The translations under genes and the position numbers were made by a program. Of a stretch of DNA of 64,000 nucleotides, positions 2,762-36,481 are shown in pieces. Under the pieces are notes generated by a model. That model was not told the origin of the DNA. It did not search any database and was given only the letters and a program-made list of their open reading frames with translations. Source of the DNA: Dioscorea cayenensis subsp. rotundata (lineage: Eukaryota; Streptophyta; Magnoliopsida; Dioscoreales; Dioscoreaceae); contig NC_052475.1 in the NCBI RefSeq assembly GCF_009730915.1, forward strand, positions 3,348,001-3,412,000, written 5' to 3'. The first letter of the stretch is position 1; every line of letters begins with the position of its first letter.

Positions 2762-3376
2762 ACAAATCAAAATAGCCGAACAAATAAATTCATTCAAATT
2801 AAGAATCAAAATAATTTTTTTATTATAGGAAAAAAAATCCACCTTTAGAAGACACTAGTGGATCTAAGTCTCCGAAAAAATCTCAAGTAAAATGTTCTAA
2901 GTATATATACATGTATGTATGTATAAGCAGAGTGATACTGCCTCAGTTTTGCAAGATGCCACAGAGTACATCAGATTCCTTCATGATCAAATCCAGGTTG
3001 GTTTCTCAATCTTCAAACATTAATTTTTTTTAACATTAATTAAATATACATAATAATAATAATAATTTTAACAGCTTCCCATTGTATCTCTTTTCATATG
3101 AGATTTAATAGGTGTTGCTCTCTCCTTATATTGGAACAAAAATGATCAACAATGTCATACTCCATCATCAAAACCAGGTAGGAAAATATGATTAATTTGG
3201 CAATATTTATGATTGCAATAAATAGAAAATTTAGATTTCATGTAATATATATCTGAATTAATATAAAGCTGATAAGAATGTTTACTTGAATCAGGAAAGC
3301 AGTGCATCAGAAGAACATCTCCATGGCTTATGTTTAATGCCAATTGAATCTAGTTTAAGAATGGCCTCAACCAATG
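2179..3376. repeat. Right arm of the large inverted repeat
   Basis: This is the reverse complement of 1-1178 at high identity. The match stops at 3376 only because the left arm runs off the window. Positions 2310-2410 hold a segment that recurs at about 3835-3935 (shared TTTTAAATCT.AGCTCA and TTAACTTCA blocks), so a dispersed repeat sits inside the arm. Confidence 0.9.
2725..2758. repeat. (AT)n microsatellite
   Basis: A pure AT run in the right arm, the counterpart of 623-668 but about 12 bases shorter. Confidence 0.95.
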
Positions 3377-13278: not shown

Positions 13279-13420
13279 GTGAAAATTGCCAAAAAAACTC
13301 TCTAAGTTTGTAAAATTGTCAAAACAGCGATTAGTTTTGCGATCACTAGCCCTCCTTTTTAAACTCATATTTTTCAAACTCCCAAAGTAGTAGCGGATGT
13401 GAGCGGAGTGAGTTTCAAAT
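13279..13420. repeat. Left terminal region of MULE copy A
   Basis: It begins GTGAAAATTG and matches the left end of copy B, including GGATGTGAGCGGAGTGAG. Against the inverted right end (22640-22736) it shows an imperfect terminal inverted repeat over roughly 65 bp, with shared G.GAAAATT and TTTTxCAAAA blocks. Confidence 0.6.
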
Positions 13421-15039
13421 TTTTATGGGACGAAAATGCCCTTGCATGGGGAGTCGTGGGCTGCACCATCTCGGCGGTTTGAGAGAAAGTGGGGTGGGTT
13501 TCGTAGGGAGTAACCCCAGAGGCAATTTATTGGAGCCGTTCTTGCTTTTTCTCAACTCGCGTCTTCGAGTTTTTCCAGTTTCAAAGTTTGTCTCAAAGTT
13601 GTCTCTGGAGAAGCCTCTGTAATTGCAGTTTTTCCCTTTCCACCGGTATCTCGAAGGAGAAGTCCCCCGCGCAACTAGTTGGCATTTCATCGGTTCTGAT
13701 CTAAGGTATTGAGTATGGTTTTATGTTAAGCGATTACATTCTGAAAGAAAGATTTTTCGGTTTTTGTTTTTGTGCTCCTGTTTTTTGTTGGAAGATATTG
13801 AAGTTTGCGAGGGGATTTCTATCTGGGGTTTTTGTTAGTCTGCAGAGAGATTTCTCGACTAGGGTTTTTGTTTTGTTTTGCATTTTCGTATATATACACT
13901 ATCGAAATAGTTTTTTTTATTGTTATGATTTGTGTAATATTTATAATGTACATTTCACTTTCGTTTGATATGGTTGCGATTTCTACAAATGAGGGTTGAC
14001 GTTTAAGAAATGAGATGTTACAGTTTTAAAAATTTGTTGTCTCGGTTTAAGTATTCTCGTCTGCATTTTAATAAAATGGGTCTCGTTTAACATTTGATAT
14101 CTCATTTAATAAGCGAGAGGTTCTGAGTTTAAAAACCTTATATTTCAAAAGCTAACCTTTTGTCGATATTGCGTATTGAATGTGTTGTTATTATCGCGAG
14201 CTTGTGATTATGGCGGTCGACCCTAGTTAATAGGCGATGCTATTTGACAGCGGTAGTGGAGACCTTAGGCTGAATTGAAAGATAACATGACCCTTCGACA
14301 TGGGGAGATTATTCGAAGGACAGCTTTGCGACGTTCATTTGAGTGGAAGCTATATACCAGAGAGGGCCCTTCTTGATTGTCTTTTGCAAAGATGCGATGG
14401 TGCGCACCAATAAATTCGGGATCGGGAGAAAAGCCTGCTGAGTTTCGAGACCTCGAGATGTGGCTCTCGTTCTTGAGTGCAGCGTTGCGATGGCGACGCG
14501 ATGCGTCTTTCGAAGAAGAAAACCACAGTCGGCGTTGAAGGAGGTATCTATCGAAAAACCTACGAGAGCAGGGAGACTCCGTCGAGAGCGTTACGGTGCA
14601 ACTTGTTCGACGGAGGGAGAAGAAGATAATTTTTGTCAAACTCGATGGTGTACCTCGTGGAGTGCGAGTCCTCTTCCCAAATACATCATGCTTTCGGTTC
14701 CGAGCCGGATCGTTGATTATGTCGATGATCTACCGAGCCCGTGAGGCGATCTGGCGTAGGGCGCGAGACGGCGCACAAGTGGCTTATGGAGGATATTCCA
14801 CAAGCGAGGGCGCTCGAGTGCGAGATAGATGCTTGCGGGAAGAAGACCAACACAAGGATACGATTAAGGGGTTGCTCGGTCGCGCTTAATGTCTAGTTTT
14901 CTGGTGGCCAAAGCGGGGAAGAAAGTCCGTTTGGCGAGATCCCAAGGATCTTTGTGCTTCTGGGTGAAAGTACTTACAGGAAGCGAGCGGCGGTAGAAAC
15001 CGACTTATCGTCGCTCGATGGAAAAGAGGTAATAAATCA

Positions 15040-15235
15040 TGGACGATGTTTAACATAAGTCTTTAATGTTTAAACATATTATTTAGCGTTTAACTTTCGT
15101 ATTTACCATTTAAAAACTTATTACATACTGGTTTTAAATATTTTTGTTCTCCGTTTAAATATATTCTATAACGTTTAAATATATAAACACTCTGTTTAAA
15201 TATAGTTTTTATAGTTTAAAATGAATGATTTTGCT
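15040..15235 (+). repeat. GTTTAA motif array (copy A, intron between first and second Ulp1-gene blocks)
   Basis: About ten TTTAA cores, mostly GTTTAA or GTTTAAAT, lie in roughly 200 bp with irregular spacing of about 12-25 bp. The same array, core by core, is found in copy B at 28185-28375. Confidence 0.8.
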
Positions 15236-16454
15236 GAAATTGTTTGGTTTTACATATGTTAGTTTCTTGAGTCGGTTACGGCGAATCTTTGAAGAAGAAA
15301 TATTTATTAGGGGCCAACCGACGGATGGATGCTGATTGCTCGGGAACCACTTGCTCGAAGGTAGGATGAGAGGCGGCCTACATCGTGCGTGCTTCAGCCC
15401 AGTTCTTCTACTTCAGACCCCACCACGCTCACGCATTCCTCGTGGCTAGGAGCCCTCCCCCAGCCCCGGCGATTGCAACAACCCCTACCACGACAGCAGC
15501 GGTCCCCGATTATGCATGACCCCAGACCATGGCGAGCCCCTCCGACCGTGGAGCCCAATCGGTGACATTAGGCGAAGATGTCATCGTAACTCTTATGCAG
15601 GCGTGCCAGATATTGATGACCGAGTTTCCTCGGCTTGTCGCTCGTGTTGAGGCATTGGAAGGGACGTTCACGACCGATGCGCCATCCCTCCAAAGACTGA
15701 AGCACCGGGGACGAATGAGGCGTCGAAATTTGACGAGCGAGCGACATCATCGGAAAGGTCGTTCAAGGCGGCCACATTCGAGAGAGACTTGCGAAAAAGA
15801 GGAGAACAATCTCGCCTCTGTCTCCACCCTGCGGTGACGATGAAACAATAGCGACACCATCGGCGGTGATCGTCATTCATTGAGTCTGTCGCAGTTGATG
15901 ACATAGCCATGACGGTGGAGGGACATCGTAGTTGATGTGGCCGTTGCAGGGTTGAGAAGGTCGTTAACTCTCTTCTTAATGAATCGATGGACCGGTGGAG
16001 CCATGCCTCGCGAGATGCGACATCAAAGATGGACACGATCCTTGCGGATCGAGAACAAGCTAAGGGTGTGTGTCTCCAATGATCGTCGTCGTCGTGGCCG
16101 CGGTTGAGAAGATCGTTGAATGCATTGCTGTGGCGTGGTGACGAGCTACCGCATCGAAGCAGGACACAATCCCACCACAACTAGAACCATATAAGGATGT
16201 TGTCGCCGTCGTCCGCAGTCGGAGCCGGGACAGCGATCCCACGACAAGAACAACCATGTAAGGATGTGTGCTGGGTTGATGTTGTCGCCGTCGTCCTCGC
16301 ATGACGAGAGATGATCAAGGCCCGATCAAAAATGGGACCAGAGCGGCTCGAAAAAGCTTTTATTCCCATGGGTTGCTCTGTCTCGTCTTAACAAATACGA
16401 GCGAGGGTTGATGAGGATCTTCCTCAACTGCTCTATGGACGGGTAAGTTGAAAG

Positions 16455-16615
16455 TTTTTATGATAGTGTTTAACGTTTTTCTAATAGTGTTTAATGTTTT
16501 TATGTTATCATTTAATTTGTCTACTTAACGTTTAATTATATATAATATCATTTAACAATTGATAATATCATTTAAATATTTACTATATGGTCTTATTATA
16601 TACATTATCGTTTAA
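16455..16615 (+). repeat. GTTTAA motif array (copy A, before peptidase block)
   Basis: Repeated GTTTAA, GTTTAAT and ATTTAA cores about every 15-20 bp. The partner array in copy B lies at 29600-29795. Confidence 0.75.
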
Positions 16616-17534
16616 CCTCGACTGCATCGTGTGGAAGAATGCCATGTTGTCAGCTCACAGGGACAAATTGTACATGTTGCTTATGTGATGGGACGCTTTC
16701 GTATGCATAATACAAAAAGTCGTGAGCGAAAGAGCCATATCCTTACAAGGCGTCTCCATCGCGAGACCAGCTTGCGTTGTTTATGTCAAAGCGAGGATGG
16801 CGCAAAATGAAACAATTATGGCTATGGTCGGGGATGCTTTGTGCGTAACTCTGCCGAAGTTCAAATTGTCATCCTCCGGGATAATCATGAATGGTCACTT
16901 CCATGTCATACGTCCTTGTAATGATAAAACAAGAATATAGGCATTATTGTTCATGTCCGGGGAGTGCGATAAAGGCGCGTTGGACATGGTAAGTTCTTTA
17001 ATTATGTCCGATTAATAGTGTTTGGTATTTAATCGGTATTCTAATCTCAACTTGCATATCTCGGCAGTGGAATCTATTCGACAATTGTGTCGATATGGAG
17101 TTCGGCGAGTCGTGAGCAAAGTACCCACTCGTCGCGCGACATGGAAACCCCACGCCAAAAATAAGGAAGCGTCGATTGCGCGCTGCAAATCGTCAGTCGC
17201 GGTTTATCGAGCATTACTTTGGGGTGAGAAGTTACTGACTTCTGCAGCAGGGAGCGTTCCTTACCTCGAGATTAAGGTATGTTACCCGCATACTTAAGGA
17301 GGGAGGCGTGGCGTCCATGAGAAAGGGGGTAGGTCGCATGGCGGGTTAAATTTTGTTTTTGAAGAACATGTCTTGTATATCTCAATGTCGATTTTGTTTT
17401 TTTGAATGTAAACCTGGACATTCAATTCATTGTTTTAGTTTCGGAAGAACATGACTTGTATATCTCAATGTAAATTTTGTTTGTTTTCGATTGTAAAGCG
17501 AGGTTAAATTCCATTACTGTTTCATTTCATTGTT

Positions 17535-17695
17535 TAATTTTACGTTGTAATTGTGTACATTTCCGTTTCATTGTTTAAATATACCATATATCGTTTAAAC
17601 ATCGGTTTGAAATATTTCAAAATTCACATTGTGTCAGTTTAAAAATAACACTCTGTTTAAATAAATGCATTCATTGTAAAGAGTAAGAGTTTAAA
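17535..17695. repeat. GTTTAA motif array (copy A, between the two convergent genes)
   Basis: TTTAA cores between the 3' ends of the Ulp1-like and transposase genes, matched in copy B at 30735-30905. Confidence 0.7.
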
Positions 17696-20340
17696 TATGG
17701 AAAGTTGCCCATCGATACACGATGTTTCCCTATCATCGATCGGCTTATTTCTGATGCCTAGTCGGCGATAGTTTTCAGTTGCAAGATCTACGATTGTGAC
17801 CGGGATCCATGGCGGCAGTGCAATGTAACTCGCGGACATCAAACGCTTGCGACTCGATCCTCTTTCAGTCTAGGGCCGCCCGAGTGCCTTCTCGCGTCGG
17901 CGGTGCACAGCGAAGCTCACGATTTTCGTCCCGAAGGCTGTCATCGTCGGTGTATGGGGAATATAGCTTGCTCATCGCCCGATTTCTAATTGGCGACGGT
18001 GAAGTAGCGCTAATAAATCGATGGGACGTTGGTGTCATGCTGCATTATTGCGGTATGGCGTGTTTTGCAAGGGATACCATAAACTTGCCATCTTCGACAT
18101 GAACAAGTTCGATGGCGAGATCTCTGAGTTGCTAAAAGCTGGTCGATCACTCAGTAGCGATCATCGACACAGCGACCAACACGAAGATTTCGGCTATCTT
18201 CAACAATGATCTCTACCTCGAATGCTATGTACGGGTATAAGTAGGGTCTCCCATTTGTTCGCTTGCTCACGCGGTTACATAACATGCGCATCAACTTGAA
18301 CCTGGCAAATAAGGTTAAACAAAGACAGTGATGGTTAAATAATTCGTAAACATGTTTAAACATTATTGTAAATATTTAAACGAAAGGATTAATATTTAAA
18401 GTCACACAAGTGTAATTAAACAAAGATTGAGAATGTTTAAAGGGTAACACTAAATGTAATTAAACAAAGATTGAGAATGTTTAAAGTGTAAATCAACATT
18501 CGCAGACCTTATGGAGTCGACCATTTTCGTCACTGGTAAATGACGAGCTTCCTTGATCCAAGCATTGAACGACTCCGTGACGTTTGAATACATCTCACCC
18601 CAACGATCACCTCCGAGCGAGATAATTACGACCAATTGACCATATCCAGGTGTATTAATCAACCGGTGAGCGAGCTTCAGGGTGATGTGGCTGCGCAGTT
18701 CATTCACGGTATCTTGAAATCTTTAGTACCGTAGATGCTCACGCTAATGCGGAAGCATATAGACCAGCACTCCTCCTCAGATGCCTTCCCAAGTCGACAT
18801 TGGCTTTTCGTAAAATTGGCCTCCAAAATGTCGAAGGCGGTATGCATGTAGCAAGAAGGGAATACTCTCGTAATAGCGTTCACAAGGCCCTTGGACCTAC
18901 TCGACACGAAGCGTAATTATCTCATGATAATCTCCTTCCTCGTATAAAAGCATCGCCTAACATAGATATGAACCAAGTCGATTGGTATCGGTCTCGTTGT
19001 CGACTATACCGAAGGCGGCGTGAAAAAACCATTGTTTCCATCTTTCCCGTGGCAGCTGATAGTGTACCCGATATTTTCAAGGAGGTGGGTACCATCGAGA
19101 AAGCTGAGCGGCACTGCAAGCCTCTTGAATCCCATGATACCTGCTGAAAGAAAAATGCACGTTTAAAAGCGATCACCGTCTTTTTCGCGATCGCAATGAC
19201 TGAGGGATTTGTCTCGGCCGCCTTATCCGCATACCAAAGCAAGCAGTCATAGTCGGAGATGTCAGCGTACGTCGAGGACGACCGGGCGTCTCTTTTTCCC
19301 AACCAAGCTGCAGCTTGTATGGTATGTGGACACCATGTTCCCACAGACGTGTCGCTTCACGAATGTCGATGCCTTGTACTGAGGGCGGTCCTTGAGCTTC
19401 GAATCACTCGTGCGCTAACCCATTTTTGGGACGCTTTCGGATGTGGCCTGAACCTATGCCACTACTTTGCAGCATGTGGCCACGGGTTGATGTGTCTTGA
19501 TTCTAAAAAGTATTTTTGTTATACTCTTTTTGATGCGTAAAAGGCTAGCCAACGACAACCATCGTCGGGCGCATTCCACGATCGCCCGATGTTTTTGGTT
19601 CTTTATGAATTTGAAGTCAAAAAATTCCGTTTAATTGCATGATTTTGAAGTACATCCCACGAAATGTTCGGACACCGTCAAAATGTTGTCAAATATCCAA
19701 CGGCTGACTCGGAATGATCGGCGAGGAAGGAAGACATCCGCACCGTCGGGGAGTCGCCATGGGGATGAGCAGGGAGCACTCATGAGAATCCGAATTCACG
19801 CTTGACACTTTTGAGTCAGAATGAAAACATCAATATGTTAAGCGGAGAATATAATGTTTAAGTGATAATGACAATATTTAAAGCGTTAAATTAAATACTT
19901 AGCGATTTACGAATAATGTAAACAACTAGTACGAAGATGTTAACGAGTGACGGACATATTTAAACACTAATGAACCCAGAACAAGCTGGAACAAATAAAA
20001 GAGAAGGAACTTCTGACGAGTAAAACTCGTTTTCATTAGGATGCGACAATGACACATCTTACGTCTCAACAACAAGATCAACTACGACACATTTGAAGAT
20101 GGAGTGCTGACGTGACACATCCTGGAAGTCAACATCGTTTTCTATTGGACAAACTAGTTTTATATCCATACGGGTGTGATAAACTTAACCACGACAAGAG
20201 AAACTTGAGGACCCCATCACTCACATATCTCATCTAACACCAACTCCCAAGAAGTCGAGCAGTGAACATTAGCACTCTTCCACTCCCGTTGAATCTAGCA
20301 ATACCACAAAAACTCTCCATAATATATCGGCCGAAAACCA
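17690..20340 (-). pseudogene. MuDR-type MULE transposase, copy A (frames broken)
   Basis: In transcription order, the N-terminal exon at about 20340-20030 contains PIENDVDFQDV, as in MULE N-terminal (PB1-like) domains. The MuDR DNA-binding region follows at about 19720-19560 (IFDNILTVSEHFVGC). The transposase core at 19345-18509 includes WFISMLGDA, SKGLVNAI.RVFPSC, LEANFTKS and RWGEMYSNVTESFNAWIK. A GT-AG intron at 18302-18507 joins MVDSIR to FKLMRMLCNR. The SWIM region and a zinc-knuckle tail (GHNRRSC) follow down to about 17780. All blocks occur in the family's order, so this was once a full transposase. Frameshifts now break it. The protein would bind the terminal repeats and catalyse cut-and-paste transposition. 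Confidence 0.8.
18305..18490 (-). repeat. GTTTAA motif array inside the transposase intron (copy A)
   Basis: Repeated TTAAAC/TTTAAA cores on the + strand, which read as GTTTAA on the transcribed minus strand. They fill the intron between MVDSIR and FKLMRML. Copy B lacks this intron because of its deletion. Confidence 0.75.
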
Positions 20341-20599
20341 AAATCGTACAAACCAAAATGAAATGAAGAACAAAAAAATAAGGCGAAGAAGAAGAAGAAG
20401 AAGAAGAAGATGTAAACAACAAGCAGCGGTCGGATAGGCGAACAAAAAGTGCATATATATATATCATTTGTCGCGATGAAGACAAAAAAAGTGCATAGAG
20501 GTTAGACTAGAGCGTGATATGATTGGGCGGTATTTTTTCCTCCATCCCAAGGGCAAAAAGGGAAATATATGTTACTGTCGTGATGTAGACATATTGTCA

Positions 20600-20990
20600 T
20601 CGCTCGACATGAGTATCTGTTTAAACGTCAAGCTTTTTTTATGTTTAAAGCAGATACATATAGTGTTTAAAATAACGAGTTACATGTTTAAATAAAGTCT
20701 ATATCATGTAAATAATCGTAAAACCATTTTAAATATAGTGATTTAAGCTATTTTAAAAATATATGTTATTGTTTAAATTGAATGCTTTTCACCGACATCG
20801 CGTTGAAGATGGGTACCTCTCGGGTCATTTGTTTAAACATCTTTTACGTATTTTCTTAAACACCGTTGTCGTTGTTTAAAGAGTAAATTGAGTATTGTTT
20901 AACTTTTTCTATTGTTTACTAATGAGCGTTCTTTGTTTCCCAAAATGTTTTTACTAGGTCTCTGTTTAAATTTCAGAAGTTCACATTCAA
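20600..20990. repeat. GTTTAA motif array (copy A, spacer between transposase copies)
   Basis: The densest array in the element, with more than fifteen TTTAA cores, many of them GTTTAAA or the palindrome GTTTAAAC. It is matched in copy B at 32400-32860. Confidence 0.8.
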
Positions 20991-21019
20991 ATAAGCTTGT
21001 TTCGTTTTATTTATAAAAC

Positions 21020-22450
21020 ATTTACAACATTACAACATTTACAACATTTCTGACGTCTTCTCGGGACTTTGGACACTCACGACTCGACCTCGTGAGAGCG
21101 AAACAAGTGTCATGCATACATTCGAGATACTCACAGCGGTTGCATAACATGCGCATCAACTTGAACTCGCTGGCGTCTAACATTAAAAAGGTTAAACAAA
21201 CACATTCATGAAAATGTCTATTAATCAATGTGTCATGGTCAGACTTAAGCGAAGATCCTCATAGTTAAACACAGAACGTAATAGTTGATACCTTAGCGTA
21301 AGGTTCTTAAGCGGTAACAAAAAGTCTCAGTGATAAATATCAACTCCGTCTTAAAGGATGTTTCACGATCTCCCTCCTCTAGAAGAATCCTCCGCAATCA
21401 CGCAATAAGTGAAAACTTTCTTTTCTTACCCAAGTCGAAATGCCCAGCTTAATTGCTTGCGGTCAGTCCATCTTGGAGAATCCTCTGCATTCGGTAATTA
21501 TTCGAGTATTTTTGACTTGGGCGGGAAAAAGATAGTTTAACTTTCGCGTGATTCTACTGATTGATTCTCAAGATAAGGAGGATCATGAGACATCCTTTCG
21601 GATCAGAGTTGATCTTGATTTTAAATCGACTCCGGTGAATATCATGCGGGGAAGCGGGATGACGAGGAGGAAGAGGAGGAGGAGGAGGAGGAGGATGATG
21701 AGGACGACGAGGAGTGGTTGTCCATGGGAAGGGTTCTTCCTTGTTATTTATGGTGTGAAGTCCACAGCGGTGACTCTTCGTATCCGAGAAAAAAAGTTAA
21801 AGCGTACGGTGGGACCGAGCATTGATTGATGACAACGAGCGGGTGTTCGGATATTTATGTTACCGTGCGTAAGAATTAATGCAGTCGTTAATTCTTACTC
21901 GCGGGATACTCTGCTTTCTGCCGCGTGCCACTGCCAGACAATTCGAGGATCAAAGCGAAAAGATCAGCGTTTCTACGCGAGACTTTGAGAATTTACCGTT
22001 AATATGAATAGTTATACATGTAAAGATAAAGTTAAGCGGAGATGACAATTATTAAACATATTGGTAATATATTTAAAGCGAGATAATAACAAATAGTTAA
22101 AGCAGTATTTAAAAATATACAAATAGATAACCATAAAGCGAGGAAAAAGAACTTTACAGACGAAATGAACTCGTTTTCAAACGGAGACGACAATGGCACA
22201 TGCTCTTTCTCGACAATAAAATCGACTACAGCTCATTTGAAGATGGATTGCACTTGACCAATCCGATGAAATCAACTTCATTTTCTATTGGAGAAACAGA
22301 TTTATATATTTTTGGGTATGATAAACTTCACGAGACTACCACAAATGAGATGCCATAATAAACACTTGCGGAATGGTCAAGAGTGATAGCGATGAGATTC
22401 TCACCGTATTCTGAAAGCCGTGAGGCTGAAGTCGAACAACTCAAATGAGG
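21020..22450 (-). pseudogene. Second, partial transposase unit inside MULE copy A
   Basis: The minus strand repeats pieces of the main transposase gene. At 21140-21180, FKLMRMLCNR recurs just after an intron-like GTTTAA stretch. At about 22450-22160 the N-terminal exon sequence recurs (VYHT, then a region matching PIENDVDF with changes). The DNA-binding and catalytic domains are missing. At 21660-21720 a (GAGGAG)n run would encode an acidic run on the + strand. The same partial unit is present in copy B, so the duplication predates the split of the two copies. Confidence 0.65.
22010..22110. repeat. GTTTAA-like motif array (copy A, right side)
   Basis: Weaker array with TTTAA, GTTAAGC and ATTAAAC cores. 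It resembles 19840-19980, as expected if both flank duplicated N-terminal exons. Confidence 0.55.
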
Positions 22451-22639
22451 AGAAATGAGGAGAACAAAAAGATGTAATGCAACTTCTAGGCATTGTATAT
22501 CAGAAACCAAGCAGAAAACCCTTGAAAAAGTTGAACATGATGTGATTTGGCGCTTTCTTTTCCCACCATTTTCAAGGCCAAAAATGGGATTTCACAACAT
22601 GGACCCATTTGAAGTGAACGGTAGGAAGTAAAAGGGAAG

Positions 22640-22736
22640 TTAAATACTAACGGAAGGGCTGTCCGGGGTGTGTAAAAGTAGGAAGGGGTTTTTGGGAAGT
22701 TTTGAAAATTACGAGGGGTGAACAGTAATTTTCCCT
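22640..22736. repeat. Right terminal region of MULE copy A
   Basis: It ends CAGTAATTTTCCC and matches the right end of copy B (shared GTGTAAAAGTAGGA and TTTTGAAAAT blocks). It is imperfectly inverted relative to 13279-13420. Confidence 0.6.
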
Positions 22737-22788
22737 TTTTTTTATTTTATATTTATTATATACATGAATTGAAGCCCCTTCTTCCCAG

Positions 22789-22920
22789 CAGGCACAGAAG
22801 TTTGTGGAGCACGTAGAAGCTTATACTATCCGTCTTAGCTTGGTGCTCTCGGGGCATCGTGATGTTCCCACCGGTGGAGATGCTCCAGGTGAGGGTGACT
22901 TTGCTCAGGGTATGTGGTAG
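22789..22920 (+). other. Possible orphan exon right of MULE copy A
   Basis: A pyrimidine-rich tract ending CCCAG precedes an open frame starting QAQKFVEHVEAY and ending FAQGMW before TAG. A GT donor inside, after GGDAPG, would make a shorter exon. It is richer in GC than its surroundings. I do not recognise the product, and no partner exon is visible. It could be the 3' remnant of a gene interrupted by the element, or chance. Confidence 0.3.
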
Positions 22921-23932
22921 TTCATGTGTATCAGGGTGTTCTGGCCAGTTATTTTAATTTTGGGTGTAATTTTGTGTCTGCGTCTAATGGGTTAGTCTTG
23001 TTTTATTGTTGGTTTTATGACCACTAGATTGACGGTATCGCTCTTTTGTGGTTTATTCAAATTTTTTTTTAAATTGATTCTAATGAAAAAAATATAAATA
23101 TTATAAATTGTTTTTGAAATAAATAATTATTTTTTATGTAAATCTCATGATTCAAGGCTTGGTTTTGTTGTAAACTTGGATATTGAGAGTCACTTTTATA
23201 CCTTCTCTTCCTTGTTATTATTGTTTTTTGGGGGGTTTATGTATTTGTTCATACTAATTATATATCTTAGAAAAATGAAAATATAAAAATAAAGTTATGT
23301 TATCAAACTTTTTTTTAAGTACAAAATGTAATATTTTAATTGTAAAATATTCAATTTTATTAATTTTAATATAATCTGTCAACTTCAAAAAAAAAATCCA
23401 TCCAACAAGAGTTTTTATCCCTATATTTAAAAAATTACTTAAATTTTTTTTTATAAATTCATATTGATTATATCCCTCATCTAAAGATAATTTCAAAATG
23501 CAAAAATTATCATTTATTCTCTTCACTTCATCTATCCTCAATTTACACCATCATAATAAACAAAAATATAGACAAAATCATGAATTAGAACATTCAATCT
23601 TTAATTTTTATAAAAAATGAGACAGAAACTCTTTTTATTGTGGTGCAAGCCCCCACTCAGAGCAATACCGCTCTGCCATGAACGTTTGTAACATATATAT
23701 ATATTTATATATTCTTTACAAAAAAATATATTATAGGAATCACCCAATCACCCATTTTACTAGATATATGTAGCCAATTTTTCTCAAACATATATATACA
23801 AATAATCCTATTCATTCTTTAATCCTGTCAAAGTAATTTCACAGAAAGTAACAAAGAAAGAAACAAAAATCCATAAATACATAACAAAGTATGAAATTAA
23901 GAAAAGAAATAGAAAAAGAATACATCAATTAG
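22921..23932. other. AT-rich intergenic region 3' of CML
   Basis: No gene seen. The minus strand at about 23640-23690 has TGGCAGAGCGG, a good RNA polymerase III box A, followed by GTGGGGGCTTGCACCAC, which suggests a decayed tRNA-derived SINE. No box B is apparent. Confidence 0.5.
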
Positions 23933-24389
23933 TCAAAGCAGAAAAAAACCACCACCTCTCATCATCTGCTTAAACTCCTTAAAATTCACCATCCCATCTC
24001 CATCAACATCCACTTTCCTTATCATCCTCCTGCAATCCTCCACAGTCCTGCCTTGCTTCAACCCAAGTGATGCCAAAACAGACCTCAACTCCTCCTCAGT
24101 GATAAAACCATCACCATTTTGATCAAACACGTTGAATGCCTCTCTCATGTCCTCCTCTTCATCCTCTTCATGATCATCCATGATGCTCTTGTACAATGTG
24201 GTGAACTCATCAAGGTCTACACAGCCGTCGCCATTGACGTCAATCTTGTCGATCATGGCAGCGAGGTCGAGTCTCAGGGATGTCAATGCCGAGCTTGCAG
24301 AGGGAGTGGTTTAGCTCTTTTTTGGAAATGCAGCCGTCACCGTTATGGTCGAACATTTGGAAGACACGCCGGAGCTCTGATGAGTCCAT
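23933..24389 (-). CDS. CML: Calmodulin-like protein with four EF-hands (one-base frameshift)
   Basis: A single exon on the minus strand; from ATG at 24389 to the stop at 23933 gives about 151 residues once one base is removed. The four calcium loops are [36 protein letters not shown] and [12 protein letters not shown], all with Asp at position 1, Gly at 6 and Glu at 12. The length and the start [10 protein letters not shown] match plant CMLs. An acidic linker (HEEDEEED) separates the two lobes. It would act as a calcium sensor that binds target proteins. Frame is lost between loops 1 and 2 (about 24270-24276), where one surplus base turns a PEL-type codon series into a premature stop. The downstream ATG at 24286 would keep only three EF-hands. 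The exact CML number cannot be assigned. Confidence 0.85.
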
Positions 24390-26470
24390 TGTTGGAGACC
24401 AATGTAGTTATTATGATTGAATGAATGAAAAGATGAGTTATTGATATGAGAATATTGTAGTTCTTTTGTTTCTTTGTTTTGGTTTGTTAGTTTGAGAGGG
24501 AAGGAGAAGAAGAGGAAGGAAAAAAGGAAGGAAGGAAGGTGGTTAAGGAAAGGTTGGAGGGATGCATGGAATTGAAGGATAAAGAGAAGGGTGGAGGGAG
24601 GGGTTTGGTGGTTGTGGCTGTTTTTGTTGTTTCTATTCTTGATTCTTTGTCTGTCTGTATGTATATTTATATATATTTAGCAAAGATTTATCCAAAGTTC
24701 ACCTTTCTTTCTAGACTCACCATCCGTGCATTGGGGTAGCTATATATGTATGCTATTTCCTCCATGCTCAAAGATGGAGGATTTGAATTTTACTCGGTGT
24801 TCTTTTCTTGTTCATTTGGACAAATTACTAATATTATGTGTTGAAAATTTGTATACATTTTTATGATATTATGTGCGAATCAATAACATGAAATAGATTA
24901 TAAATCACCGCCTTTAAGAGTTTGTCGAGAGACAAAGCAATCTAATGTCATCGATTATGGTGACTTTATTAGCCTCTAAAAATTTATCAACTTGGTTAAA
25001 TATAATATGGGACAATTAAAATCCACCACTTGTATTTTGAAAATTTATAGAAATTATCTTGAGCCAATAAATTTCCTACTCTATGTAGCTACGAAAGAGA
25101 GGATTACAACTCTTGTATCTGGGAAACCATTTAAAGCAGTCTATAAATAGAATCAAGACTCAGAAATAATAGATGAACAATACAAATATAATACCACTAG
25201 TATAGGGTTTTAAACTTACTACTATGTGATTTTGCGATAATCCATTACATGGCACATGCAGTTGAGTGATTTCAAATAAGTTTTTTATATGAAGAAATTA
25301 TTTATCAAAATATTGAATAATTCTATATTATCTTTATCTATTCTTTAAAATAGAGAATTTGGTTATGTATCTCTCGAGAATGATATTAATTTTTTATATT
25401 TAAAAAAAATCAAAATTTTAATTACCATTATCTCTTTAATTATTTTTTGGAAAAAATAATTTATATTTTAATAAAATGTAATAATTAGTTTTTATCTATA
25501 GAATAAATAAAAGTATTTTGTAAATGTATATAAACAAATATAATCTTCTAAAGCCACTTTGCAACAATATAAAAAGTATTTTGTAAATGTATATAAGCAA
25601 ATATGACCTTCTAAGCCACTTTGCAACAATGATGTAGTAATTAAAGCACTTAACTCTCATGCGGGAGGTTGAGGAAGCCAGTAAAAATAAAATATGTGTA
25701 TTTTAAATGGCTTCTCTATGTTATCAATATATATATATACATATATATAAATTTTCTGGTTATATGTTATTCTCTCCATTTCATATTAACAACTACATTT
25801 GAAAAAAAAATTCAAATTGCTTATCAGTTTTAAAAATTCAACGAGCATTAATTATGTTTTTCAATTTTGTCCAAAAAACAAGTGTGCATTAATGAGAGTA
25901 AATAACTCTACTAATATTTTAGGGACTATTAACGACAATGGTTATATGTCACAATTAAAATGAAATGAAGGGAGTAACAATTATTTATTATATTTAAGTT
26001 TTTATTTATATTAAATATGATATTAATAATTGAAGAGTGTTAAAATCCTAAATATTATACAAAGAAAAAAAAATTATTTTAAACGTTCATGAGTATTCTA
26101 AATATTTTCAATATTATTTGGTAATGAATATTGACCTCTCCTTTAAACGGAGCAAGCTTTTCCTGGTCCTTTCCACAAGCCTTCAAACCCATATTTTTCT
26201 CTCTACATTTTTTTTTTATTCCAAACCAAATTCCTCTATTTCTATTTTCTTCAATTTAATTTTCCACTTTAAGCAATTCCAAAATAGTGTTAAGTAATCA
26301 AAATGATCACATACCCTTTATTTTTGCCAAAGAAGAATTTTGTTTGTTATAAATAATTTATATATGCGATATTAAATTATTTACAATAATTTAATTGCAT
26401 ATTAAAAATAATGTTCTTTTTGTTAGATTAATAAATTATTATTTAATTAGTGGTGGTATATATATATATA
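24390..26470. other. Intergenic region upstream of CML
   Basis: This is the CML 5' region, with a GGAA-rich stretch at 24515-24540 that could lie in the 5' UTR or promoter, then AT-rich DNA. A tandem duplication sits at 25509-25631. No gene seen. Confidence 0.7.
25509..25631. repeat. Tandem duplication, 2 x about 61 bp
   Basis: The unit begins AAAAGTATTTTGTAAATG and ends CACTTTGCAACAAT. The two copies are 63 bp apart and differ at a few bases. Confidence 0.85.
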
Positions 26471-28184
26471 GTGGAAATTAGATCACTTTTAAGTTTGTAA
26501 AATTGCAAAAACACCCGTTAGTTTTACGATCCCAAAATCCCCTCCTTTTTAAAGCTACATGTTTTTCAAACCACCAAACCACAACGGATGTGAGCGGAGT
26601 GAGTTTCAAATTTTTGGACGAAAATGCCCTTGCATGGGGAGTCAGTGGCTGCTGACCATCTCGGCGTTGAGGAGGAGTGGGCGGTTTTCCGTCAGGAGTA
26701 ATCCAGAGGCAATTTATTGGAGCCGATTTACTTGCTTTTCGACTCACGTCTTGACTTTTTCCATTTCGAGCATCTCCGAAGTTGTCTCTGCGTGAGCCTA
26801 CATGTAATTAGCATTTCGTGACTTTTCTCTTCCACGGTATCTCGAAGGAGAAGTCCCCATGACTAGTTGGCATTTCATGGGTTTGCAATCTAAGGTATTG
26901 GTATGGTTTTATGTTAAGCGATTACATTACAAAGAAAGATTTTTCGGTTTTGTTTTGTGCCCGGTTTTTGTTGGAAGATATTGAAAGTCTGCGGAGGGAT
27001 TTCTCATTTGGGGTTTTGTTTTGTTTTTGCATTTTCGTATGTATACACTATCAAAATAGTTTTTCGATTGTTATGATTTGTGTAATATTTATAATGTACA
27101 TTTCCCCTTTCGTTTGATATGGTTGCGTGATTCTGAAAAGGAGGTTGGCGTTTAAGAAATGAGATGTTCACAGGTTTAAAAATTTGTTATGCGTGTTTAA
27201 GTATTCTAGTCTCTGTTTAACAAAATGGGTCTCTACATTTAACATGTTATATCTACATTTAATAAGCGAGGTTTACAGATTTAAAACCTTATATTTTACA
27301 GCTTAAACTTTTTGTCGAAATCTTGCATGTTGAATGTGTTGTTATTATGCGAGGCTTGTGATTATGGCGGTCAACCTAGTTAATGGGCGATGCTATTTAG
27401 ACACGGTTGTGGAGACCTTAGCTGAATTGAAAGATAACATGACCCTTCGACACTGGGAGATTATTCGAAGACACCGTTTCTGAGCGTTTGAAATTTGGAA
27501 GCTATATACCAAGAGGGCCCTTCTTGATTCTCTTTTTGCAAAGATACGATGGTCGCACCGATAAATTCGAGGATCGGAGAAAGCCTGCTGAGTTTCGAGA
27601 CCTCAAGATGTGGCTCTCGTTCTTGATACGCGTTGCGATGGCAGCGATCGTCTTTCGAGAAGAAGAAAAACCATCGTCGTTCGAAGGGGGTATCTATCAA
27701 AAACCTCACGAGAGCACGGAGACTCCATCAAGAGCACTCACGGTGCAACTTGTTCGAGCAGTGGAGAAGAAGATAATTTTTGTCAAACTCGATGGTGTAC
27801 CTCGTGGGGAGACGATCCTCTTCCCAAATACATCATGCTCGGTTCGACTAGATGGGTTGATTACGTCGATGATCTACTTGACCATGAGGGCGTCGCGTAG
27901 AGCGCGGTGGCGCTGAAGTGGCTTATGGAGGATATTCCACGGCGGCTACCCGAGTGCAAGATAGATGCGGCGGGAAAAAGACCAACGAGAGTACGTTAAG
28001 GGGTTTGCTCGATGTCGCTTAACGTACGGTTTTATGAGTGGCCAGGGAGCGAGGGAAGAAAGTCCGTTTCGGCGAGATCCCAAGGATCTTTGTGTTCCGG
28101 TGAAAGTACTTATCGGAAGCAAGCGATGGTAGAAAAGCGAGCTTGTCAGCCGCTCGATGGAAAAGAGGTAATAAATCATGGACA

Positions 28185-28375
28185 ATGTTTAACATAAGTC
28201 TTTAATGTTTAAACATTTTATTTAGCGTTTAACTTTAGTATTTACCGTTTAAAAACTTATTACATCTTGGTTTAAATATTTTGTTCTCCGTTTAATTATA
28301 TTCTATAACGTTTAAATATATAAACACTGCTGTTTAAATATAGTTTTTATAATTTAAAATGAATGATTTACTTTG
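28185..28375 (+). repeat. GTTTAA motif array (copy B)
   Basis: Aligned core by core with 15040-15235 of copy A, and less altered than the flanking coding blocks. Confidence 0.75.
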
Positions 28376-29599
28376 AAATTGTTTGGTTTACATATGTTAG
28401 TTTCTTAGTGGTTCGTGAATCTTTGAAGAAAGAAATATTTGTTGGGGCCCGACCGAGCGGATGGATGCCATTGCTCCGGGAACCACTTGCTCGAGGCGGG
28501 GATGAGGAGGGCGGCCTCTATCGTGCTTGTATTTGGGACGCCGTTCTCCTACTTCCGACCCTACCGCAGCGCCGCATTTCTCGGCCCGGAGAAGCCCTCC
28601 CCCTACCCGTGATTACAGCAACCCCCTACCACGAGCAATGGCGGTCCCCCGACCATGGCGGCCCTCCGTGAGTGGCAGCCCACGGTGACATTAGGCGAAG
28701 ATGTCACCGCAACTCTGCTCTTGAGCAGTGCGGATATTGATGACCGAGGTTTCCTCGACGCTCGCTCGTGTTGGTATTTGGAAGGGCGTTCGTAACCGGC
28801 TGCGCCATCCTCGAAAGAGCCCAAGCTTACGGGATGAATGAGGCGTCGGAATTTGGCGATGACGACATCATCGGAAGGTCATTCAAAGGCGGCCACATTC
28901 GAAGAGACTTGCGAAAAGAGGAGAACAATCGCCTCTGTTTCCACGCATGGGGTGACATGATGAAACAATAGCAACACCATCGGTTGATCTTTGTTGTTGA
29001 GGAAAGGACATCGTGGATGATGTGAGCCGATTCTGCATTGTTGAGAAGGTCGTTGACTCTCTTCTTGATGAAATCCTCGACCCAGTGGAGGCACTGCCGA
29101 GATACGGCATCATAAAGATGGACATAATCCACGAAGATCGAGAACAAGTTAAGGGTGTGTCTCAAATGATCTTTGTTGTCATGACCACGGTTGAGAAGAT
29201 CGTCGAATCCGTTGTCGTGGCGTGGCCAGTAGCCCGGCGATGCCGCGACCAAGCGGGACACAATCCCACCACGACAAGAACCATGTAAGGATGTATGCGC
29301 GGTTGATCGTCATCGCCGTTAGTCCCGCGTCGAGCGGACACAATCCCACAACAAGAACAACCATGTAAGGATGATGCTGCGATTGATGTTGTCGCCATCG
29401 TCCCGCATCGAAGGAAAGATCTGCTGAAGACCCGACCCGAGCAGACGAGAGATGATCAAGGCGATCAAAAATTGGACAGGGCGGCTCGGAAAGCTTTTAT
29501 TCGAAGAAGAAGAAGAAATGGGTTGGCTTTGAGTCGTCTTAACAAAGTCTGACGAGGAGTTCATGAGGGATCTTCCTCAGCTGCTCTATGGACGGGTAG

Positions 29600-29795
29600 T
29601 GTAAAAGTTTTTATGATATTGTTTAAAGGTTTTATTATAGTGTTTTAACTATTACCTAATAGTGTTTAATACCTTTATGTTATCATTTAATTTGTCTATA
29701 ACGTTTAATTATATATAATATCATATAACGATTGATAATATCATTTAAATATTTACTGATATGAGTCTTATTATATACATTATCGTTTAACCTCG
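29600..29795 (+). repeat. GTTTAA motif array (copy B)
   Basis: Partner of 16455-16615 in copy A. Confidence 0.7.
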
Positions 29796-30734
29796 AGCAT
29801 TGTGTGTGGAAGAATATGATCTGCCATCTTCACCTGCGACAAATTATACTTATTTGCTTGAGGGAAGGAGATGAGTCATTGATGATATGATGGGCGGCTT
29901 TACGTATGCATAATACAAAAGTCGGCTGAGCGAAGAGCCATATCCTTACAAGAGCGCCTCCATCACCAGAGACCGCTTCATGTGTTTATATCAAAGCAGG
30001 ACGGCCTTTATGACACAATTTTGGCTATGATCGGGGATGCTCTGTGCATAGCGCATGAAGTTCAAATTGTCATCCTCCCGATAATCATGAATGAGCCAGC
30101 TTCCATGTATCGTAGTCACGGACAATGATAAACAAGAATACAAGCATTATTTTCATGTCCGAGAGTGCGATAAGGAACGCGTTGGATATGGTAGAGTTTT
30201 TAATTATGTCCGATTAATATCATTTGGTATTTAAGTCGAGTATTCTAATCTCGACTTGCATATTTCGGCCAGTGAGGATCTATGCGACATTTTAGTGTCG
30301 ATATGGAGTTCGGCGTGACGAAAGTACCCGCTCTGCGCGACGTCGAGACCCCGCCAAAAACAAGGAAGCGTCCATTCATGAGCCTACGTCATCGCAGTTT
30401 TGCTCGAGCGATTACTTTGGGGTGAGAGATTCTACACTGCATGACGGGCGTTCCTTCTCTCAGTTAAGGTATGTTACCGCGCATACTTAAGGAGGGAGGC
30501 GTGGCGTCCATGACAAGAGGGTCGTCCATGGCGGGTTAAATTTTTCGTTTTTGAAGAACATGTCACGTATGTCGAATGTCGATTTTGTTTTCGAATGCAT
30601 GCTGGACAAATTCGATTCATTGTTTTACGTGTTCGAAGAGCATGACTTGTATATCTTAATGTAAATTTTGTTTGTTTTTGAATTGTAAAAGCGGGTTAAA
30701 TTCCATTCGAGTTTCATTTCATTGTTTTAATTCA

Positions 30735-30905
30735 CGTTCTAATTGTGTACATTTCACTTTCGTTGTTTAAATATACTATATATCGTTTTAAACATCGAGT
30801 TAGAAATGTTTTCAAATTCAGATGTGTCCAGATTTAAAAATAACAATGTCTCTGTTTAAATACATTCAATTAGTTGTAAAGAGTAGAAGTTTAAATATGA
30901 AAGTT
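30735..30905. repeat. GTTTAA motif array (copy B)
   Basis: Partner of 17535-17695 in copy A. Confidence 0.65.
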
Positions 30906-30929
30906 GCCCATCAATACGCGATGTTTCCA

Positions 30930-32345
30930 CATCGTAACATCGGCTTATTCTGATGCCTAGTCGTGACGGTTTCATTCAAGATCTCGATTGTGGCCGGATC
31001 CATGGCGTGAGTGCAATGTAACTCCACGGACATCAAACACTTGCGACTCGATCCTCTTTTCGTCTAGGCCATGAGGCTGCCTTCTCGTCAGCGGTGAAAA
31101 GCGAAGCTCACGATTTCCGTCTGAAGGCTGTCGTCGTCGGTATGGGAATATAGCTTCCTTATCGCCCGGTTTGTAATTGTCGGCGGTGAGTACCCGCTAA
31201 TAAATCGATGTCACGTTGGTATACATACGTATTATTACTGCGCCAAGCGTGTTTACGAGGATACCATAAACTTCCGCCCAGCCGACATGAACAAGTTACG
31301 ATGGCGGCGTCCCGGAGATTCTTGCCTTTGGTCGATCGCGCCGTAGCGATCATCGACACATGACGACCAACGAAGATTTGATTTGTCCTCAACAATGATC
31401 TCTACCTTCGAATGCATATGCGGGCATAAATGGGTCTCCCGTTTGTTACGCATTGTCACCGGTTTACATAGCATGCGCGTTCTGAAATATTCGACCACCC
31501 GTCGAAAATGTTTGTCAATATCACGATGACTGGGAATGATCGTAGGGAAGGAGACATCCCGCCTGTCGAGGTCACCATAGGAATGAGCTGGGCACTCGCA
31601 TGATCCCAATTCTACCTGCGCGGTCGAATGAAAAGATCAATATGTTAAGTGGAGAATATAATGTTTAAGTGATAATGACAATATTTAAACGTTAAATTAA
31701 ATACCTAGCGATTAACTAATAGCGTAAAGCGACTAGTACAAGATGTTAACTAGTGACGGACATATTTAAACACTAATGACCCCAGACAACTGGAACAATT
31801 AAAGAGAAGGAACTTACAATGAGTAAAACTCGTTTTCATTAGAATTCAGCTATGGCACATTTTCATCTCGACAAAGATCAACTACAGCACATTTGAACAT
31901 GGAGTGCACGTGACACATCCGCTGGAAGTCGACATCTCGTTTTTCTATTGGGCAAACCGTTTTATATCCATACGGTGTGATGAACTTAACCACGACAATA
32001 GAAACTTGAGACCCCATCGCTCATGCAAATCTCATTAACACCAACTCCCAAGAAGTCGAGCCGTGAACATTAGCACTCTTCCCTCCCGTTGAATCTATGC
32101 AATACCAAAAAACTCTCCATAATATATCAGTCGAAAACCAAATCAGTACAAACCAAATGAAATGAAGAACAAAAATAAGCCGAAGAAGAAGAAGAAGAAG
32201 AAAGATGTAAACAACAAACAACGATCGGATAAATGACAAGTACATATATATATATATTACTGTCGCGATGAAGACAAAAAAGTGCATAGAGTTTAGACTA
32301 GACGTGATGTGATTGGGCGGTATTTTTCCCTCCATCCCAAAGGGC
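30930..32345 (-). pseudogene. Transposase remnant of MULE copy B, core deleted
   Basis: The C-terminal part (VEIIVEDKSNLRWSSCVDDRYG, split by errors, at about 31330-31430) and the N-terminal exon at 31850-32100 are present. The sequence runs directly from GCATGCGC, within the FKLMRML codons, to the region just upstream of the DNA-binding domain (about 31480). The catalytic region, intron and most of the DNA-binding domain are therefore gone. The protein cannot be functional. Confidence 0.7.
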
Positions 32346-32399
32346 AAAAAGTAAAAAATATATCACTGTCGCGATGAAGACATATTGTCAGTCAGCTCG

Positions 32400-32860
32400 G
32401 CATGAGTATCTGTTTAAAGCGTCACGAGTATTTTTATGTTTTAAGCGGATAGATATAGATGTTTAACATAACGATTACTGGTTTAAATAAAAGTCTATAT
32501 CATGTAAATAATACGTAAACCGTTTAAATAAAGTTATTTAGCTGTTTTAAAATATATGTTATTGTTTTAAATTGAATGCTTTCACTGACGTCAGCGTTGA
32601 AGATGGGTACCTCTGGGTCATTTGTTTAAACATCTTTACGTATTTTTCTTAAACACCGTTATCGTTGTTTAAAGAGTAACTAGGTATTGTTTAACTTTTT
32701 CTATTGTTTACACAGTTGTCATTGTTTAAAGGTAACTTTTTCCTAAACACCGTTGTCATTTGTTTAAACATATTTTCGTATTTTCTATTGTTTACGATAC
32801 GTTCTTTTGTTTCCCATTGTTTTTACTAGGTCTCTGTTTAAATTTCAGAGTTCACATTCA
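32400..32860. repeat. GTTTAA motif array (copy B)
   Basis: Partner of 20600-20990 in copy A and longer than it. It includes a local re-duplication in which CCTAAACACCGTTGTC recurs near 32740. Confidence 0.75.
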
Positions 32861-32879
32861 AATAAACATTTCGTTTTAT

Positions 32880-34200
32880 TTATAAAGATTTACAACATTT
32901 ACAACATTTCGACGTCCTCTCGGACTTTGATCACTCACGACTCGACCCTCAGTATAGCAGAAACAAGTGTTGCAGCCGTTCGAGATACTCGCAGCGGTTG
33001 CATAACATGCGCATCAGCTTGAACACACTAGCGTGCTGACATTAAAAAGGTTAAACAAACACATTCCTTGAAAACGACTATTAATCAATGTCATGAGTGG
33101 GACTTAGCGAAGATCACGATGGTTAAACACGAGCGTGATAGTTGTACGCGCGTAATGTTCTTAAGCGGTAGCTGAGAAAGTCTCGAGTGATAAATATCAG
33201 CGTCTTAAAGGATGTTTCACGATCTCCCTCCTACAGAGAATCCTCCGCAATCAGAAATACGTGAAAACTTTCTTTTCTTACCCAGTCGAAATGCTGCTAA
33301 TTGCTTGCGTCGATCCCTTGAAGAATCCTACGCATTGAGGCGATTGAGAGCATTTCGACTTGGCGAAAAAGATAGTTTAACTGATTCGCGTGATTGACGG
33401 CTAAACTCATTCTCAAGATAAGGAAGAAGGTTAGCAGAGCATCCTTTCGAGATAGAGTGGTTATCCGTGGGAAAGAGGAGGGCGAGGAGGAGGAGGAGGA
33501 GGATGATGAGGGCGGCGAGGGTGGTTGTCCATAGGGAGGTTCTTCACAGTTATTTATGGTGTGAATTCCACAAGCGGTGACTCTTGTATCCGAGAAAAAG
33601 TTAAAGCGATACGGTGGCAGCGTTGGTGATGAGAGCGAGCGGGTGTTGGATATTTTATGTTACCATGCGTAGAATTAATGGCCGATTAATTCTTATACGC
33701 AGGATCTATCATACCCACTGCCGTGCGCTGCCAACAATGTCGGATCAAGCGAAAAGATCTCCGTTTCTGTGAGACTTTGATAATTTACACGTTAATATTA
33801 ATAGTTATACATGTAAAGATAATGTTAAGCGGAGATGGCAAAGTATTAAGCGGATATGACCAATTATTAAACATATTAGTAATATATTTAAGCGGATAAT
33901 AGCAAATAGTTAAACATTATTTAAACAATAGTTCTTCGTCGTCGTAAACTGCACAACTTTACGACCATAAGCGAGAAGGCGACGAGTAGCACATCTTTGT
34001 GCCTCGACAGATAAAAATCGACTTCGACTTCGTTTTGAAGATGAAGTGCACTGACGCCAATCCGATGGAAATCAATTTCATTTTCTGTTTGAGAAAGCCG
34101 ATTTATATATTTCGCGGGTATGATAATGAGGAGAACAACAAAGATGTAATGCGACTCCTTGGCGTGTCTATCGAAACCATGAGAAAGACCATGAAGGTTG
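32880..34200 (-). pseudogene. Second partial transposase unit inside MULE copy B
   Basis: Equivalent to 21020-22450 of copy A. The reverse complement of the FKLMRMLCNR codons lies near 32995-33025, a (GAGGAG)n run near 33480-33510, and the duplicated N-terminal exon near 33980-34130. Confidence 0.6.
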
Positions 34201-34395
34201 AGCAATGAAGTGTTGTGGCGCTTTCCTTTTCCCGTTTCAAGGCCAAAAGTGGGATTTCGACAACATGGGCCATTTGAAGTGAGCGGTGAGGGATAAAAGG
34301 AAGTTTAAACACTAGCAGGAAGGGCGTAAGGTGTGTAAAAGTAGGAGGGGTTTTGGGAGTTTTGAAAATACGAGGGTGAGCGATGAAATTTTCCC

Positions 34396-35846: not shown

Positions 35847-36480
35847 ACATATGATACTAACTCGTTTACTTTTAAGAGAACAAATTTCTTCTTGATCACT
35901 CACCACCGTTATTTTCTCAACATAGCCACACTTCGAGGTTGACCCTACCACAAGGGTAAATTAGGCCTAACTATTCTAGCAACAAACTAGTCGTCACAAG
36001 CACAAGGTGATCATGATATCTTAGGTCAAAAAGTAAAATTCATGTGATTAGATTGTAGTGATTCATGTTTGATACACCAATCCCATCGATGTATCTATGA
36101 TATATGCTCCCACTATCACATAGTGTTTAATTGTCACTCTTCGTTAAAACATATACTATATAAATCTTTACAAATCTTTAATGTCCAATTAAAGATTCTT
36201 TGACTAGCGAATAATTTAAGTATATAAATGCTAAACCCTTCTAGTGCCCTTCTCCATATCCCATAAGGAGTAGAATTTTAATTTAATACCCATGGAATAT
36301 AATGTTCAAAACTTATTCTCCGCTATTGATGGAGTATACAATGATAACACCAAAAATGTTATGAATTAAATAATCACCAATGAGATCACTGTGTTGACTG
36401 AAGCTTTCGGTGCCTAGCACCGCGGAATCAGAAATTAACAGAGTAGAGACAGCAGATGAGAATTTAACACAGATCAAGAA
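35847..36480. mobile_element. LTR-like retrotransposon fragment
   Basis: Non-coding sequence with ATATGCTCCCACTATCACA and CATAAGGAGTAGAATTTTAA stretches that remind me of plant Ty1/copia LTRs. No TG...CA ends or second copy can be seen because of the gap. Confidence 0.3.
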
Positions 36481-36481
36481 T

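Follow-up and report, generated by a model that had tools for sequence, protein, structure and literature searches.

Two copies (A and B, ~80% identity) of one Mutator-like element (MULE) lie in a 64,000-bp stretch of the Dioscorea cayenensis subsp. rotundata genome (contig NC_052475.1, positions 3,348,001 to 3,412,000; hereafter the window, in whose numbering coordinates without a locus name are given), which is part of a 584,211,761-bp genome assembled in 2,249 contigs. Their non-coding DNA carries arrays of a short core, GTTTAA, and the element encodes, beside its transposase, a second predicted protein with PMD/DUF1985 and Ulp1-type protease regions. A 1.5-kb family probe gave at least 66 matching pieces, from the 40 of 1,942 candidates that were scored, and 20 further copies were fetched with flanks; together with five more regions bearing phased arrays these make 25 loci, which with the window amount to 303,119 bp, the loci having been picked for bearing the family or the pattern.

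Ends and genes of the element

13279–22735, no strand assigned: MULE copy A, 9,457 bp, 9-bp target-site duplication tttttttta, ends common to copies
26469–34395, no strand assigned: MULE copy B, without a counterpart of about 18290–19660 of A

An exact 9-bp target-site duplication is seen in 8 of the 13 copies with both ends located (A counted in), and the terminal similarity is imperfect in three copies (37/48, 25/30, and 56/78 aligned columns). The frames of A and B are broken; long open frames are kept in other copies. The exon borders below were placed by eye from open frames and GT..AG signals, such that their edges, above all those of the gene on the + strand (+ gene), are approximate.

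14205–15034, + strand: presumed + gene exon 1 (PMD/DUF1985), broken in A, open in L011, L021, and L028
15290–16445, + strand: presumed + gene exon 2, a low-complexity linker, open over 425 aa in L026
16630–16995, + strand: presumed + gene exon 3, first half of the Ulp1 (C48) region
17070–17345, + strand: presumed + gene exon 4, second half of the Ulp1 region
17720–18289, − strand: presumed last exon of the transposase, SWIM zinc finger
18510–19825, − strand: presumed main exon of the transposase, DBD_Tnp_Mut and MULE domain (from copies L026 and L027)
20000–20445, − strand: probable first exon of the transposase, weak PB1 match (19.3 bits, cut-off 23.6, copy L026)

Since a Pfam search with the frames of copy A itself, in which X replaced each stop, recovered SWIM only, copies with longer open frames were used. 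The transposase matches (MULE, and DBD_Tnp_Mut with SWIM: 71.8, 80.7, and 40.7 bits) are above their cut-offs in unmodified open reading frames (ORFs) of L027 and L026. Exon 1 of the + gene matches PMD at 46.1, 44.9, and 49.2 bits in L021, L028, and L011, respectively (cut-off 34.9), and DUF1985 at 35.2, 35.2, and 37.0 bits in the same copies (cut-off 35.1; 3/3 copies tested). The exon 2 linker contains a repeated peptide in other copies (e.g., L026:2055–3329, with units around DTIPPQ..PCKDVSAVD). Exons 3 and 4 taken singly stay under the Peptidase_C48 cut-off (14.7 and 18.2 bits) and, joined as presumably spliced in L027, reach 35.8 bits (cut-off 20.7); the Ulp1 part of the + gene also matches SENP1 structures in PDB (E 6e-6). 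A third gene, sought at 20.95–22.0 kb, yielded no convincing frame: one acidic low-complexity ORF is found there, with all matches below cut-off. A long imperfect hairpin occupies window 21353–21598 and, in B, 33207–33464, with inverted similarity between the copies; the RNA fold of window 21335–21600 has −95.2 kcal/mol (z −7.9 vs shuffles), and the hairpin at 21353–21598 is a possible small-RNA source.

GTTTAA arrays phased at two helical turns in non-coding DNA

By this exon layout, arrays 5 and 6 fall in introns of the transposase gene and array 7 upstream of it:

13990–14150, + strand: array 1 of A, in a 5' leader or intron preceding the first + gene exon, 7 cores, spacing 19–23
15035–15235, + strand: array 2 of A, intron 1 of the + gene, 10 TTTAA cores
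16460–16625, + strand: array 3 of A, intron 2 of the + gene, spacing 21, 21, 20, 20, 20, 40
17500–17700, + strand: array 4 of A, 3' of the + gene/intergenic, 7 cores
18290–18500, − strand: array 5 of A, in a transposase intron, 9 cores, spacing 20, 20, 20, 20, 21, 20, 24, 20; 44-bp repeat
19830–19975, − strand: array 6 of A, transposase intron
20600–20990, + strand: array 7 of A, upstream of the transposase, 13 cores
22000–22120, − strand: array 8 of A, within a second copy of the array 6/PB1-exon segment
27140–27310, + strand: array 1 of B
28175–28375, + strand: array 2 of B
29610–29800, + strand: array 3 of B
30690–30905, + strand: array 4 of B
31640–31780, − strand: array 6 of B
32395–32860, + strand: array 7 of B
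33790–33930, − strand: array 8 of B, the weakest by shuffles

The right end of A (22001–22356) is a second copy of the transposase first-exon/intron segment at 19860–20194, array included.

Dinucleotide composition predicts 9.1 GTTTAA on the + strand of both elements (17.4 kb), where 69 occur; for the remainder of the window it predicts 26.3, and 17 occur. For 14 of the 15 arrays, whose limits were drawn around the cores themselves, the core number was matched by at most 8 of 500 dinucleotide shuffles each, and for the weakest (B 33790–33930) by 25 of 500. Pooled over 1–22 copies per segment (the array 5 segment being that of one copy only) and over both strands, the eight array-bearing non-coding segments hold 859 GTTTAA in 35,865 bp (79.3 expected) and the exons 13 in 89,307 bp (31.9 expected), 12 of these 13 in the transposase main exon. 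These counts and the shuffles rule out AT-richness alone as the cause, and bear out what a preliminary description of the window had claimed, namely that the cores cluster in non-coding parts and that the coding blocks lack arrays. Its further expectation that the arrays are conserved across copies also holds, in that every family copy spanning an array has cores there (15–22 copies per array, at least 4 cores each). Copies differ in the number of units: for array 5, 9 cores are counted in A and 6–8 in 14 other spanning copies, and for array 8, 4–8 over 17 copies. As to single counts, the about ten cores described in 15040–15235 agree with the 10 TTTAA cores counted in 15035–15235, and the more than 15 described in 20600–20990 shrink to 13 separate ones. 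To place arrays in every intron and spacer was too wide, as a further 2,369 bp of non-coding DNA in A, made up of four stretches (its left and right ends, a short intron, and 21001–21989), contain 4 GTTTAA in total.

The cores recur every ~20–22 bp, with a mode of 20, i.e., about two turns of the double helix. In A and B, distances between same-strand TTTAA pairs peak at 20 (24 pairs), 40–42, 60–62, 82–84, and 103–105 bp; among 955 steps between neighboring TTTAA-type cores in the 20 other copies, 533 measure 19–22 bp (417 of them 20–21), 92 measure 39–46 bp, and 134 less than 18 bp. Steps of 22–23 bp in arrays 1 and 7 are common to copies (majority spacing of array 1: 22, 20, 20, 20, 20, 22, 22), and other off-period steps in A and B may stem from private indels. 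Throughout the 303,119 bp, GTTTAA triples number 244 at a spacing of 19–22, 0 at 7–18, 0 at 23–34, 1 at 35–38, 115 at 39–42, 3 at 43–46, and 0 at 47–50, and triples of control words at 19–22 number 0 (AATTTG), 0 (GATTAA), 2 (CTTTAA), and 3 (TTTTAA). The step and triple counts thus rule out the irregular 12–25-bp spacing first described. Tandem Repeats Finder (TRF) reports degenerate 20–21-bp tandem repeats at several arrays, which corrects the earlier statement that these are not ordinary tandem repeats.

Strand was called by a weight matrix trained on A and B, with A and B left out, over up to 20 copies. Around the + gene (arrays 1–4), 593 of 622 cores read +, and in the arrays of transposase type (5, 6, and 8) 223 of 272 read −; the tendency of the core to follow transcription, as first described, is therefore confirmed for the introns.

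Persistence of the cores in relatives and non-autonomous elements

Genome-wide, phased GTTTAA triples (19–22 spacing) number 7,880 forward and 8,196 reverse, 16,076 in all with overlaps counted, against 14 + 19 = 33 matches in the reversed control. Several quite different spacer sequences occur among the matches listed (~100, from the first 3.0 Mb of one contig). Five further array regions, a small and selected sample from one contig chosen for unlike spacers, all (5/5) carry sequence of the MULE group. Two of them, L030 and L033, are relatives at ~71–79% DNA identity over longer matches, and L031 is the most distant relative (71–73% in exon 1 and 67% in exon 3), neither its transposase nor the ends of its element being found in the 9 kb fetched. 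L032 combines a family fragment with an adjoining 1.7-kb element (L032:2994–4681) that has the family's ends, reversed, and two runs of GTTTAA units. L029:3624–5354 is a Pack-MULE-like element of 1,731 bp that shares its ends with the family and has a duplication of 9 bp (TTAAAATAA); within it, a G+C-rich, coding-like fragment is flanked by GTTTAA units on both sides. The non-autonomous elements of L029 and L032 thus both carry arrays.

We compared cores and spacers at their A/T positions in intron 1 of L031 and L021. With L031 as the reference, 29 core positions are identical and 1 differs, and 97 spacer positions are identical, 41 different, and 34 gapped; with L021 as the reference, the cores have 36 identical and 5 different and the spacers 90 identical, 53 different, and 2 gapped. 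The L031–L021 alignment score for this intron is 106 against 38.1 +/- 7.4 for shuffled sequence, and falls to 27.8 against 15.8 +/- 5.4 with cores masked. For L030 and L031 the score is 78 against 42.0 +/- 7.8, and 16.7 against 16.1 +/- 6.6 with cores masked. The spacers are thus near chance in L031, and the cores and their period are kept. The 20-bp units of four groups (61, 11, 6, and 13 distinct ones) agree on T at −5, Y at −4, W at −3, and Y at −1, their middle being looser than these agreed positions before the core. Within the family, arrays 1, 2, 4, 5, 6, and 7 show lower divergence at A/T positions of the cores than at those of the spacers.

A and B themselves differ by 655 mismatches and 573 indel events, 403 of the latter of one base; per 100 aligned bases, the arrays show 6.4 mismatches and 5.5 indel events and the + gene exons 9.9 and 8.4. 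The description of stable arrays against indel-ridden coding parts is accordingly right in direction, the arrays being less diverged, but the contrast is modest and weak evidence of selection. As A and B are, moreover, rich in private indels (34 and 35 in exon 2, against 1–19 in the other 20 copies; 16 and 15 in exon 1, against 0–16), we dropped the inference of selection from it. Over all copies, private indels favor CG surroundings (exon 2: 0.51 vs 0.40) and CAG/CTG (0.21 vs 0.14); one reading of them is base-calling error at methylated cytosines, another is decay. Gaps per mismatch in other repeat pairs of the window are 0.04 (46023/46251), 0.97 (25282/4444), and 1.13 (the pair flanking the first N gap), the first being far lower, and the latter two indicate that abundant gaps are not peculiar to the MULEs.

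Elsewhere in the window, gap-rich inverted repeats of ~85% identity, at 1–1178 and 2188–3376, enclose a 1,000-base N run, which may be an assembly join. Local duplications pair 36460–37052 with 37911–38516 (79% identity) and 46023–46249 with 46251–46475 (87%). Between copies A and B, an open frame with EF-hand-like loops (23933–24310, − strand) looks by eye like a host calmodulin-like gene.

A candidate Ulp1-fused VANC-like reader of the arrays

The preliminary description knew of no such arrays in MULEs, which is incorrect: according to the main text of Hosaka et al., 2017 (PMC5735166), the VANDAL21 (Hiun) MULEs of Arabidopsis encode VANC21, whose domains are DUF1985 and DUF287 and which binds YAGTATTAY in high-density, one-orientation arrays in introns, intergenic regions, and terminal non-coding parts, and brings about loss of DNA methylation. 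The same text reports that the related VANC6 recognises other motifs and that the arrays change quickly via repeat formation; it also states a puzzle, namely that the motif is very short and yet one VANC-type protein recognises a long element. It never uses the word 'spacing'. Part of a review (PMC13317346) describes certain VANC genes that include Ulp1 (KIU) and whose targets are motifs in the non-coding DNA of KIU VANDALs. PMD is given in the consulted text of PMC6446971 as an accessory domain beside the SWIM transposase in some MULE groups.

Going by that main text, the yam element resembles VANDAL21 in encoding a transposase and a DUF1985 protein, in having one-orientation arrays in introns, in intergenic parts, and upstream of the transposase, in its changing repeat number, and in a variable protein region with repeated peptides (PMC5735166). 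It differs in its GTTTAA-based motif (vs YAGTATTAY), in two genes being seen (VANDAL21 has three), in the fused Ulp1 and the absence of a detected DUF287, and, by the main text only, in the 20–22-bp period and in one motif extending over several families. With KIU, likened here by the review's description, it shares Ulp1 (C48) in a DUF1985-type MULE gene and motifs in non-coding parts (PMC13317346); relative to KAONASHI/KIU, the yam element has imperfect terminal repeats. Like the VANC6 targets in AT9TSD1 (main text of PMC5735166), its arrays also occur in elements that are not full family members, and unlike AT9TSD1 the yam non-autonomous elements keep the family's ends, one of them flanking a fragment of other origin. 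It shares PMD beside a SWIM transposase with the PMD-bearing MULE groups, for which motif arrays go unmentioned in the text of PMC6446971 consulted. We do not file the element as a VANDAL member, because no DUF287 was found and several families have one motif, but by analogy it may work like a VANC/KIU system.

The element's genes match these systems, as do the placement, orientation, and repeat dynamics of its arrays, and we accordingly read the arrays as sites where the + gene product docks: they would be landing sites for an element-encoded, Ulp1-fused VANC-like protein with an anti-silencing effect, a reading to which we assign a probability of roughly 0.68. The + gene product would comprise PMD/DUF1985, a variable peptide-repeat linker, and a Ulp1-type SUMO protease. 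Each predicted site is of the form ~TYWNY-GTTTAA, repeated every ~20–22 bp or two B-DNA turns, a period that would set neighboring molecules on one face of the helix and so favor cooperative binding; lone GTTTAA words elsewhere would not be enough. Protein bound along introns, spacers, and the region upstream of the transposase could strip silencing from the whole element, with the Ulp1 part perhaps taking SUMO off silencing factors, and derivatives keeping arrays, Pack-MULE-like ones included, would be freed as well.

Several observations weigh against this interpretation. DUF1985 is only just above its cut-off and is outscored by PMD in exon 1, and DUF287 has no match at E up to 1 in exon 1 (L021, L028, and L011), exon 2 (L026), exon 3 (L020), exon 4 (L028), or exons 3 and 4 joined (L027). 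In array 7, upstream of the transposase, 149 of 197 cores read +, i.e., opposite to the transposase, and here the rule that the core follows transcription fails. The runs of L032:2994–4681 likewise point the opposite way relative to the ends when set beside L029. Four element groups have one motif in common, whereas Arabidopsis families differ in motif. As regards the cores, core and spacer A/T divergence is about equal in array 3 (3.7 vs 3.8%) and slightly greater in the cores in array 8 (3.1 vs 2.9%); the family (A) and L030 still have alike spacers with cores masked (48.4 vs 15.2 +/- 5.9); and the definition of cores by one partner's or the majority sequence in these comparisons is a bias in their favor.

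Of the roles first suggested, protein binding fits best with the core, phasing, strand, placement, and presence in non-autonomous elements; the transposase, named then as a binder, is not favored. A role of the arrays as promoters or in enhancing transposition, through binding of a host transcription factor or the MURA-type transposase, is nevertheless the strongest competitor, if an unlikely one. MURA binds sites in long terminal inverted repeats, and arrays do lie towards the ends, upstream of the transposase, and in non-autonomous elements. However, each terminal 120 bp of a copy has about one core (13 on the left and 11 on the right in 13 copies, both strands) and no arrays in these 13 copies, on which ground we rejected a main role as transposase sites; most arrays, moreover, sit a long way inside the element, in presumed introns. 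Signals at the RNA level (splicing, elongation, or 3' processing) in introns and untranslated regions are improbable. U-rich words are common in plant introns and the strand in introns follows the gene, as counted above (593/622 and 223/272), but a two-turn period would suit DNA and not RNA, array 7 upstream of the transposase is on the other strand, and the arrays of the Pack-MULE-like element flank an unrelated fragment. The splicing role proposed at the outset is weakened by the same two placements. Marginally less probable still is a neutral 20-bp minisatellite that spread and then decayed: the degenerate 20–21-bp repeats of TRF and the differing unit numbers would be its marks, but when A is compared with L031 the cores and the period persist and the spacers come near to chance, unlike spacers surround one core among the genome matches listed, strand is kept, and exons are avoided. 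That the arrays recruit silencing as sources of small interfering RNA (siRNA) or targets of RNA-directed DNA methylation (RdDM), instead of countering it, is the least probable of all, as RdDM is guided by homology and does not depend on a short invariant core or a set period, and a selfish element would have no reason to keep such arrays. In its favor are that tandem repeats can be siRNA sources and that RdDM targets overlap those of VANC1 and VANC6 (PMC10398659, in the part consulted).

Beyond the docking-site reading, we tentatively consider, as a possibility with the odds somewhat against it, that a Ulp1-fused VANC-like protein reads one GTTTAA code, set at every second turn, in many MULE families and Pack-MULE-like derivatives of this genome, forming a shared genome-wide anti-silencing network in which phasing is part of the specificity; in Arabidopsis, by contrast, each family has a private system. 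The two-turn phasing, the one motif common to several families and non-autonomous elements, and the monocot host are apparently new: we found neither GTTTAA arrays nor a two-turn period in MULEs in the literature consulted, which for the VANC papers was main text.

The two-turn period would offer a physical answer, through cooperative binding on one face of the helix, to the puzzle of how so short a motif is recognised. If the reading is true, a monocot, the yam host, would possess a Ulp1-fused VANC-like system. The presence of arrays in non-autonomous elements suggests that elements can share anti-silencing, and the combination of array period and motif provides a simple handle to look for such systems in other genomes.

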